Of a DNA stretch of 64,000 bases, positions 50,028 through 54,853 are shown in pieces. Source of the stretch: a virus; IMG/VR virus record IMGVR_UViG_3300034072_001021, positions 1 through 64,000 of that record. One strand, 5' to 3'. Below the pieces are notes generated by a model, which was not told where the DNA came from, ran no database searches, and worked only from the letters and a program-made list of their open reading frames with translations. The first letter of the stretch is position 1. Every line of letters begins with the position of its first letter. Both the position numbers and the translations under genes were made by a program.

Positions 50028-51278
50028 GTGGCTAATGTATCTCAAATCAACATCAACAGCTATGACAACCACCTTCTGATTACTGGTGTTGATCAGAGCA
50101 ATCTGATTGATCATGTGCCCGCTATGGTCTATCGTGCGCGCATGACTCGTGAAGGCCTCGTCCTGATCAAAGATAGACCGAACTTCACCCTGCCTCAGTT
50201 GCGCTTCGGTAAGCACAACCGTTATTTCTCTGCCATCTGTGCCGAATACGATCCGCTTGGATCTAGCACGGGTGTTCTGCTCGCTGGTCATAAGGGTTCT
50301 GGCAAGTCTCTCATGGCTGAAGAACTCGGTAACTGGATGATCAAACGCGATCTCCCGGTTATCATGATCGATGACGATCTCTGCCATCACACCATCAACC
50401 TCATCATCCGTGCTGTCGGTCCCTGCATGGTGTTGTTCGACGAGTTTGGTAAAGTGTACTCGGACGAAGACAAGCGCAATCGCCTGTTGACAGTGTTCAG
50501 TGACACGTCCTACGTCGGTGTCATGTTCGTGATCACCGGTAACTGCCGTGAAGAGTTCGGCGAATTCCTGGTAAACCGTCCACAGCGCTTCCGTTTTGCG
50601 ATTCATTATGAATCGGGTGTCGATGTCGAGTTGGCATGTGACGTCCTCAAGAAAATGCAAGTGCGTGAGGAAATGCACGAGACGTTGCTGGCGTATGTAC
50701 AAGGCCAACAAATCCAGCACGGTGGTCTGAATATCGACTCTTTCTTGGCAGTGGTGCGGGCTTCTGCGAACTGCAAGACTGTGGCTGAATTGGAAGAAGT
50801 CACCGAGATCATGAACGTACCGCGCATGGTCAAAAAGGAGTGGCGGGTCATCAGTGTCGTAGCGACTCCGAAACACGAACTGGCTGAAGATTTCGGATAC
50901 AGCGCCGATATCACCAAGTCGTTTGTCATCGACGGCAATCCACTGATGCTGAGCATCGCCGAAAACCGTAACACTGGCCGTAGCTGGGAAAAGGACGAGG
51001 AGGGATGTTACATCACCAAGTCGTTTGATCCCAGTGAAGATTTTTCGGATGTTGTAATTAACCACGAAGGACAATACTATGATTTCGAGATCATAGTCAG
51101 TTATTGTTATTCGGTCAACGCACAAGGTAAACCGACCAGTAAGCGTGGTAAGGACCATCCTCGCATGGCGGAGATGGAAAGCCTTCATGCTCAACGCAAT
51201 GGTAACAGTCGCACGGCTATGTTTGGTATGGAATACACCCCGTCTGCTTTTCTTGCTGCAAAACACCAACAGGGCTAA
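50028..51278 (+). CDS. AAA+ ATPase
   Basis: 416 residues, GTG start behind AAAAGGAAC. Residues 1-85 are a unique N-domain. AAA+ core: Walker A GHKGSGKS near 92-99; VIMIDDDLCHHTIN; Walker B CMVLFDEFGK near 135-144 with the catalytic Glu; sensor-1 VMFVITGNCREEFG near 165; and RPQRFRFAIHY carrying a likely Arg finger. After the lid domain a C-terminal 130-residue region ends in basic sequence. It would form a ring that uses ATP to remodel or unfold a partner. The next unit begins 370 bases later with a proteasome-like hydrolase, so a protease pair is possible but unproven. Confidence 0.88.
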   Translation: MANVSQININSYDNHLLITGVDQSNLIDHVPAMVYRARMTREGLVLIKDRPNFTLPQLRFGKHNRYFSAICAEYDPLGSSTGVLLAGHKGSGKSLMAEELGNWMIKRDLPVIMIDDDLCHHTINLIIRAVGPCMVLFDEFGKVYSDEDKRNRLLTVFSDTSYVGVMFVITGNCREEFGEFLVNRPQRFRFAIHYESGVDVELACDVLKKMQVREEMHETLLAYVQGQQIQHGGLNIDSFLAVVRASANCKTVAELEEVTEIMNVPRMVKKEWRVISVVATPKHELAEDFGYSADITKSFVIDGNPLMLSIAENRNTGRSWEKDEEGCYITKSFDPSEDFSDVVINHEGQYYDFEIIVSYCYSVNAQGKPTSKRGKDHPRMAEMESLHAQRNGNSRTAMFGMEYTPSAFLAAKHQQG

Positions 51279-52712: not shown

Positions 52713-53144
52713 GTGAAAAAGAAAGTCGTGATCGTTGGTTTCCCAGGCATTGGGATGACTGAACTGACCAAGCGGCAAAAAGAATACGTGGAGGTAGAAA
52801 CCTCTGCGTCGGGGGTATCGGCAGGTGTCATCAAGAACCTGCTCGATGAAGGTCTTAAAGTCCTTATTCCGTTCGACAAGGATATCTGTGACGCACTGGT
52901 CAAAGAGAAGATCAAGTTCGTCATCGTGTATCCGAGTCGTTCGCTTAAGGCTGACATCTGTAGTCGCATCAGTCCGAGAAGTATCGACGACACTCGCATC
53001 ACCGATCTCATCAACCACTGGGACGAACACATCGACCAGTGCTCGACACAGGAGTGTTATACCCGAGTAGTACTCACCAAGTCTAACAGTTATCTGTGTG
53101 ACCTGGTCGTCTACATTGAGAATCTGTTTACCAATTGTAAATAA
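52713..53144 (+). CDS. P-loop-like protein with degenerate Walker A
   Basis: 143 residues from GTG 52713, chosen because the longer reading overlaps the previous gene and this start gives KKKVVIVGFPGIGMTEL at the N-terminus. The Walker A-like loop GFPGIGMT lacks the essential Lys (Met instead), so normal ATP binding is doubtful. It continues with KFVIVYPSRSLKADICSRIS, like the strand and helix after the second kinase motif. It may be a remnant or regulatory form of a small kinase. Last gene before the large non-coding region. Confidence 0.6.
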   Translation: MKKKVVIVGFPGIGMTELTKRQKEYVEVETSASGVSAGVIKNLLDEGLKVLIPFDKDICDALVKEKIKFVIVYPSRSLKADICSRISPRSIDDTRITDLINHWDEHIDQCSTQECYTRVVLTKSNSYLCDLVVYIENLFTNCK

Positions 53145-53189
53145 TTACAGTTGGCGCGTTCTCTATGTGAACAGAAAATAATTAACTCA

Positions 53190-54130
53190 CAACAAGGACG
53201 GATTCGATGTTTGGGCTACTAACATCGTCCGTGCTTCGTCTGGCACTGAGTGCGGGTCGGTGGGTTGCAGATCTCTTAGTGGAACTGCCGCCTTTACCGA
53301 CCGAACGGTCAGGACCCATCCTGACCTTGTCTCCTGAGCCCGAACCGGCAGCTGGCGCCAACCGCGACCTTAAGGCGGTCGTATGGAGGCGTGCAGTAGC
53401 CTGAAGCACGTAATTTGATCATGCATAAGCCGATCCTGGCCGGGCGCTGGCCAGCATAATGCAATAAGGGGAGTGTAGCCATAGAAATCAATGCGCTTGT
53501 GATAGCAGCTCTAGCTGTACTAAGCGCTGGTGATATTGATGCTCGTACTGGAGGACTCGTGATGACCGCCGATGTCGGTGTTCACTACGAGATGCCGCTT
53601 ACTGAGTCGCCGGAAGACCCGGTCATACTCCGTCAGGCCATGCCTGATTGGTTACTTGGTGAAGCGAGGGCAATTCTGGACGAGGATCGTCATCAGTGGC
53701 TTAGCACAGTCGAAAGCTTTGCTAGCACATGGACGCACTGTGGGAACTGGCACGGGCACTGCGGGTCCCGTAAGCCAAACCATAGAGCCGTCTACCAATA
53801 TCCACGGTGACTAAACCTTCGAAACCGATTAAGTTCGGCCTTAGAGCCAGTGGGCTCTCTCATGCAGCCGTGCATATAGCGAAATGCAAGTCTCTTGATC
53901 AACTGTAAGGTCATCATCTGCGACTATCCAATAGGGTTTCATGAGGCCAAGGCGGATATTGTAGTTATGGCAGCAGTGGGGATGAGCAGCGTCTTCTGAA
54001 AGTGATAATGGGACAACGACACCGAATGAACTAACGCTCGGCAGCCTCCAAGAGGAGGAAACAGTACCCAGATGGGGCTGTGCGCGAGTATTGTTGGATC
54101 GGTGTCAATGTCTTTCCTTTATTTTCTTTT
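53190..54130 (+). ncRNA. Giant structured non-coding RNA candidate (~0.92 kb)
   Basis: A 1-kb gap with no credible gene but many perfect helices. 5' end: ACGGA-TT-CGATGTT with AACATCG-TCCGT (53198-53232). Then GGTCGGT/ACCGACC (53255, 53296); GGTCAGGA-CCCA-TCCTGACC (53307-53326); CGACC/GGTCG (53365-53381); CGTGC/GCACG (53390-53410); TGCAT/ATGCA enclosing CTGGCC/GGCCAG (53422-53463); GCGCTT/AAGCGC (53493-53527) with an inner hairpin; CAGGC/GCCTG (53634-53646); ACGGG/CCCGT (53752-53771); AGAGCC/GGCTCT (53843-53858); ATGCA/TGCAT (53862-53875). The 3' domain is closed by GACACCGA/TCGGTGTC (54018, 54099), with inner GCAGCC/GGCTGT and CTCG/CGAG, followed by a T-rich tail. The architecture recalls ornate phage RNAs such as GOLLD or ROOL, but no conserved motif was matched. 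Confidence 0.65.
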
Positions 54131-54167
54131 GCCGATTTTATGAGGATCAACCTTTATAAGGACTGTT

Positions 54168-54551
54168 ATGTCATTCCAAAGTGACTTCGATGTAAGGCAC
54201 TTGCCAGAAGGACGCAAGTACTTACTGAAAGAGTTTGTCTTTAATGACCCTGAACACGGCAAGGTAGTGGTTTATCCAGAATACCTTACTGGCAGACGGG
54301 TAAGGCGACGACCCATGCTCTGGCCCACCATACAGCGTCTAAGCTGGGGTAGGGCAGACAGAGCCGAAACCATAAGAGACTATCTGTACAACGGGGGCAT
54401 CGTGCACTGCAATGTCCCAAACAAGAAAGAAGCAGATGAGATATTCCACCGTGCGATGATCGCGGAGGGTGTCCCGAAATGGCGACGTATTACTTTGTAC
54501 AATTATGTCCGCTTGTTTGGTCGACCTCTCTGGAAAGGATGGAGTAAATGA
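54168..54551 (+). CDS. Diverged DUF1353-like protein
   Basis: 127 residues. The C-terminal part follows DUF1353: ETIRDYLYNGGIVHCNV, KKEADEIFHRAMIAEGVPKW, then RITLYNYVRLFGRPLW, matching KEADEVFYRALRSEGI...W...MFYAGVRVGG of the gene at 27761. The usual VHD is replaced by IRD (His lost), so if the family is catalytic this copy may not be. The N-terminal half differs and is basic. Preceded by an AT-rich region with ATTTTATGAGG. Coupled to the next gene by ATGA. Confidence 0.7.
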   Translation: MSFQSDFDVRHLPEGRKYLLKEFVFNDPEHGKVVVYPEYLTGRRVRRRPMLWPTIQRLSWGRADRAETIRDYLYNGGIVHCNVPNKKEADEIFHRAMIAEGVPKWRRITLYNYVRLFGRPLWKGWSK

Positions 54552-54853
54552 ATAGTCTTGTCTCTGTATCTGCTGCAAACACTGGCGCTCCAGGTACGCC
54601 CTCGAGCCCTGAGCGTTGGCTAGCCGCACGTATCACCGCCAGCAACCTCAACGTGTTTCTTCAAATGTGGAAACGCACGCCTAAAGAACTTCTCACAGGC
54701 GATGAGTTCGAGGCTGCCAAACACATGGTCACCCACATCCAAGCCAGCGCCGGTGTCTTTATCGATGCTATCCATACTGCCCACACCATGGATCAGCTCA
54801 TCGACATTAACCAAGAATTTTACAATATGGCTGCTGCTAAAAGTGGTGTCTGA
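54548..54853 (+). CDS. Small helical protein
   Basis: 101 residues; residues 1-22 are Ser/Ala/Pro-rich and disordered, the rest is nearly all helix (ERWLAARITASNLNVFLQMW). Coupled to the DUF1353-like gene, so possibly a partner. No family recognised. Confidence 0.7.
   Translation: MNSLVSVSAANTGAPGTPSSPERWLAARITASNLNVFLQMWKRTPKELLTGDEFEAAKHMVTHIQASAGVFIDAIHTAHTMDQLIDINQEFYNMAAAKSGV

Follow-up and report, generated by a model that had tools for sequence, protein, structure and literature searches.

A conserved folded RNA unit of phiKZ-like phages with a probable coding frame that starts at AUC or AUA

GOLLD and ROOL, the large structured RNAs with which the locus described here invites comparison, are frequently found near phage tRNA islands (PMC12286853). 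Among the giant phages related to phiKZ, Grad-seq of phiKZ itself has yielded non-coding RNA candidates that are UTR-derived and ~100 and ~180 nt long (PMC8545117). The late promoters of phiKZ carry TATG, with the G as +1, and its middle promoters carry AAnnTTACc near -24 (PMC4666361). As for unusual start codons, the AUU of E. coli infC is, according to works cited in PMC9845219, the classic case of a start codon that limits expression and is sensitive to IF3.

The window, a stretch of 64,000 nt, belongs to a record of 259,140 bases (IMGVR_UViG_3300034072_001021) and contains a gap at 53145-54167 (Table 1). The gene before the gap stops at 53144, and a tail-assembly-chaperone-like gene (PHROG 1158) begins at 54168. 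No ORF of at least 110 aa with a conventional start lies within the gap, and it is the sole ORF-free gap above 700 nt across the 259-kb record, which was read in pieces of twenty kilobases, three stretches aside: two at piece ends (203267-204000 and 258358-259140) and the tRNA region (228905-230584). The record encodes two tRNAs (Asn and Thr, ~229.5-230.1 kb) and a multisubunit RNA polymerase. An earlier note on this DNA had seen no credible gene here, which stands for conventional-start frames of that length and fails for a frame with a non-standard start, ORF B (53481-53810), which the analyses below support as protein-coding. Two more frames with an AUH start and an SD-like motif, hardly overlapping any called gene, were seen at G000 159584-160207 and 250354-251088; these may be ordinary genes overlooked by a simple caller.

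Table 1. Positions and properties of the features proposed in and around the gap, in window coordinates.
Feature	Position	Strand	Details
Putative phiKZ-type promoter	53140-53167	+	AATAATTAC 53140-53148, TATG 53164-53167; proposed +1 G53167
Proposed transcript, ~0.94 kb plus U-rich tail	53167-54140	+	promoter-like start and stem/tail at equivalent ends, 11 homologues
ORF A	53194-53404	+	SD AAGGA 53194-53198, ATG 53207, 65 codons
Bulged 12-bp hairpin	53198-53232	+	encloses the ORF A start codon
E5 hairpin	53365-53381	+	CGACC-UUAAGGC-GGUCG; 5 bp, 7-nt loop
ORF B	53466-53810	+	SD AAGGGGAG 53466-53473, start ATA 53481, stop 53808-53810, 109 codons
Alternative conventional start	53562-53564	+	ATG after GGAGG, window only; would drop the hydrophobic N-terminus
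T hairpin	53825-53838	+	CCGA-UUAAGU-UCGG; equivalent place in 11/11
H2 hairpin	53843-53858	+	AGAGCC-AGUG-GGCUCU; stem at equivalent place in 7/11
Terminal stem, branched domain and U-rich tail	54018-54140	+	8-bp stem, GACACCGA 54018-54025 paired with TCGGTGTC 54099-54106

Homologues were reached via gene order, using the AAA gene at 50028-51278 and a small gene at 54548-54853. Nine IMG/VR contigs also carry the full unit, as does Pseudomonas phage pPa_SNUABM_DT01 (locus L007), a phiKZ-like phage closest to Noxifer (PMC8541153); these ten relatives and the window gave 11 units for comparison. All 11 are 830-990 bases long and lie upstream of the same small gene, separated from it by one or two additional genes in several relatives, and the unit is single copy wherever examined. 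By blastn, the window RNA matched no phage, and blastn/tblastn searches of other sequenced phages with the RNA and the small gene returned pPa_SNUABM_DT01 alone, besides short chance-level matches to cyanophages; the small gene found no homologue in the bacterial genomes searched. Two groups were close enough for alignment, group 1 (L002, L003, L004, L006, L007) and group 2 (L005, L015, L022, L025). Between them, the best-conserved piece of the unit is its first 24-31 nt, and in most units AAGG motifs are more frequent than expected.

Inside the units of close relatives (L002-L007, L015, L022, L025) identity shifts abruptly. L002 and L003 share ~97% identity with 67% in the terminal domain, L003 and L004 share 93-100% in the 5' and terminal domains with ~57% in ORF B, and L005 and L015 share 85-100% in ORF B and little else. 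Judged from these comparisons, parts of the unit are swapped as modules. In L005 and L024 the unit has tail-fibre-assembly-like genes beside it, and in the window the neighbour is the tail-assembly-chaperone-like gene. Two further loci were of note. In L020 (IMGVR_UViG_3300018405_000014, 116,699 bases) the small neighbour gene has no RNA unit upstream, and none was found elsewhere in the fragment by blastn. At L019 3700-3990 (IMGVR_UViG_3300035492_000309) the AAA gene is truncated after ~40 codons and joined to the 3' end of the RNA unit; the junction lies on a short shared stretch, AGGCGCTGGT, and the fusion could be either a short-homology deletion or an assembly chimera.

The unit opens with promoter-like sequence. 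AATAATTAC resembles the middle motif AAnnTTACc, its centre lying 23 bases upstream of G53167, and nine homologous units open with TATGTAGTAGCAC[T/G]GTGACA at the equivalent position. Within the window, CTATG has 4.5 times the density in intergenic sequence that it has within genes, and CCTATG ~14 times (small counts, 3 and 3), an enrichment as would be expected of phiKZ-type promoters. At the other end, the terminal stem has arms of 7-11 nt in the 11 units, complementary in each and differing in letters by lineage, with a U-rich tail immediately after. It is a probable terminator, although too long a stem to be scored by a simple terminator scan. From the promoter-like start, the terminal stem and the U-rich tail we infer the transcript and its limits; in pPa_SNUABM_DT01 the equivalent transcript would run from the G of TATG at about 249884 of the record to near 250790.

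The earlier note had also proposed an elaborately folded RNA, and on this point the comparison bears it out: the helices it named, from the bulged 12-bp hairpin to the 8-bp terminal stem with its T-rich tail, are present, folding is stronger than in shuffled sequences, and the homologues show the covarying helices that it had suggested looking for. The + strand had a folding energy of -374 kcal/mol, compared with -330 +/- 10 in its dinucleotide shuffles (z -4.3, 0/20 shuffles). The - strand scored similarly (z -4.6, dinucleotide shuffles), hence the strand was assigned from the coding frame, the tail and the orientation of signals rather than from energy. Since the energies of individual segments are modest across the 11 homologues (mean z -2.2, -1.8 and -2.7; ordinary coding pieces -1.3), covariation provides the strong evidence for structure.

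Covariation is clearest in E5, where all five pairs are intact in 11/11 sequences and four of the five show two-sided changes. Its covariation score is 0.856, against 0.239 when shuffled (0/500), with 100% of cells paired across nine distinct sequences, and shifting the partner abolishes the signal. A pseudoknot between its UAAGG loop and a fixed partner was considered and rejected, as no consistent pairing partner emerged. The T hairpin follows the consensus YCGA-UURARU-UCGR with one exchanged pair, the outer C-G in nine units and U-A in two. Perfect H2 stems of 6-7 bp with unrelated letters occur in seven of the 11 units, some individually beating shuffles, and the changes within group 2 are compensatory; in L002, L003, L004 and L006 the stem is at chance level, with no excess over shuffles. 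Taken over the 11 homologues, these covarying helices, counted on few and related sequences, indicate that the unit is a conserved folded RNA. Around the end of ORF B, mutually exclusive helices were seen in two relatives, GGACUAU/AUAGUCC versus AAUCAAUAGUC/GACUAUUGAUU in L002 (11394-11490) and ACUGUCA/UGACAGU versus CAGUAUCGG/CCGAUACUG in L007 (7464-7550); each set might act as a switch that translation of ORF B operates.

ORF B occupies the middle third of the unit and is open in 11/11 units (98-117 codons); in pPa_SNUABM_DT01 it lies at L007 7201-7527, with its AUC at record position 250200. It begins with AUC in ten and with AUA in the window, 6-8 nt past the SD core, and AUG, GUG or UUG is absent at this position throughout. 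The spacing between the upstream SD and the AUC differs by single bases (L002, L004, L007), therefore the frame begins at or beside the AUC. Indels in group 1 are multiples of three, except for one alignment-ambiguous 1+2, and group 2 has none. A custom-written, RNAcode-like coding score, usable on the two alignable groups, gave frame 0 z values of 4.6 and 3.2 and none of the remaining five frames more than 2.3. On the other side of the balance, dN/dS is only mildly below 1 (0.39-0.88). The window protein was unmatched among its relatives except at the N-terminus of L024, where the first 16 codons gave an in-frame z of 3.6, and at a C-terminal HGxCGSRK, also in-frame in group 2. This signal between the window and L024 lies upstream of the conventional ATG at 53562, which is disfavoured for that reason. 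Position, covarying structure, coding frame and AUH start are thus all conserved, and the retention of AUC/AUA across deeply diverged phages amid changing surroundings implies selection for the start codon, a rare and testable case.

The N-termini of ORF B are strongly hydrophobic in 11/11 units, more so than shuffled residues (p 0.0015-0.0185), and several have a basic residue first and A-x-A after. The product is apparently a small protein with a signal-peptide-like N-terminus, exported or membrane-bound. It had no match in PHROGs and none over the Pfam cut-off, and AlphaFold returned no fold (pLDDT 40). Without a standard start codon such a frame is easily overlooked; gene callers that accept only AUG, GUG and UUG cannot see it, and it is unannotated in the sole GenBank relative, pPa_SNUABM_DT01. 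In the predicted ensemble the SD is 33-64% and the start 31-83% unpaired. A hidden Shine-Dalgarno site was accordingly rejected, and structure-based repression of ORF B is unproven, because predicted local folding does not bury the start. Neither a phage-encoded IF3 (IF3_C had no match in the record) nor a phage isoleucine tRNA (the record has Asn and Thr only) could be put forward as serving the AUC start.

Upstream, the SD and start of ORF A are kept in all 11 units, as ATG or, in L002-L004, TTG. The first 35 codons score z 2.1 and 2.6 and the entire frame z 1.1-1.5; frame-breaking indels and this weak score led us to reject ORF A as a full-length gene, and it is probably a second, short upstream frame of the mRNA. 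Its start codon is 98% paired in the window prediction, with lower values in relatives.

Our preferred reading, held with moderate confidence, is a middle or late phage mRNA of ~0.94 kb for ORF B, and probably for ORF A, controlled by an AUH start and by structure. The phage's own RNA polymerase would transcribe the unit from the putative middle/late promoter, and the transcript would end at the long terminal stem with its U-rich tail. A good Shine-Dalgarno site would direct translation of ORF B from AUC/AUA, yielding a protein of ~100 residues that is exported or membrane-bound, and ORF A would probably be translated too. Because of its start, ORF B initiation should be weak and IF3-sensitive, giving a low or late dose, while the conserved hairpins that precede, lie within and follow the frames would control stability or ribosome loading, as in other mRNAs that are structured and encode small membrane-active proteins. 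Transcription from the TATG, translation, export and dose control by the start codon are the parts that we infer, and the role of ORF B is guesswork, with lysis timing, superinfection exclusion or another effect on the envelope as candidates. More tentatively, and on balance doubtfully, the conserved AUC/AUA inside a covarying mRNA could be a regulatory device in its own right, with IF3 availability timing or dosing an exported protein, and the unit a new class of phage RNA.

A lesser but serious possibility is that the folded RNA itself does most of the work, by binding to ribosomes, to RNA or to protein, with ORF B a weakly translated passenger as in RNAIII. The 3' domain (196-320 nt) has no frame with a coding score above 2.0 and holds several hairpins with compensatory changes, and the conserved first 24-31 nt and the excess of AAGG motifs point the same way; however, no RNA-level target or partner was found, the E5 loop lacking a consistent one, and promoter sequence may account for the 5' conservation. 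It is unlikely that the unit is purely non-coding, as the earlier note had suggested, a GOLLD- or ROOL-like RNA in which the ORFs would be accidental. The note had named a protein-coding signal kept in a single frame by the homologues as grounds for refuting it, and the middle third shows such a signal. Low folding energy, covariation and a frame lacking both a standard start and a Pfam or PHROGs match would fit, but a frame-specific coding signal with whole-codon indels in the middle third, an SD at the same 6-8 nt in 11/11 units and hydrophobic N-termini argue against it. Least probable, and in our view improbable, is a hok-like type I toxin mRNA, silent at full length and activated by processing, with ORF A as a mok-like leader. 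A structured mRNA, an upstream frame with its own SD and the hydrophobic N-terminus of ORF B recall such a system, whereas the ORF B start is not predicted to be buried and type I toxins are typically shorter than the ORF B product. For large, seemingly gene-free structured phage RNAs in general, coding should be checked before a non-coding label is applied.

The unit shares features with several known systems and coincides with none of them. As the earlier note had supposed, it matches no known family: Rfam covariance models gave no match at the gathering score for the window and seven homologous loci, nor for the gap even at E<=1. A tRNA or tmRNA identity was rejected since none was found, and no tRNA lies in the window or the ten homologous loci. 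Like GOLLD and ROOL, the unit is phage-encoded, of comparable length and rich in helices; unlike them, it has no Rfam match, no nearby tRNA and an embedded coding frame, and it is seen in one phiKZ-like phage group only, so the assignment to their kind was not upheld. The Grad-seq candidates (PMC8545117) are likewise RNAs of a phiKZ phage, and differ from the unit in size. From hok-type mRNAs, with which it shares a structured mRNA, a leader frame and a hydrophobic peptide, the unit differs in a product of ~100 aa with a signal-peptide-like N-terminus and in a start not hidden in the prediction. Like S. aureus RNAIII and other dual-function RNAs, the unit is a structured RNA that embeds a small coding frame, and the conserved non-coding 3' domain suggests a possible role at the RNA level besides coding; in contrast to those RNAs, it is phage-borne and its ORF starts with AUH. 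With infC-type AUU/AUC genes it shares an apparent non-AUG AUH start after an SD, in 11/11 units, though ORF B starts with AUC or AUA and would encode a small secreted-like protein rather than IF3.
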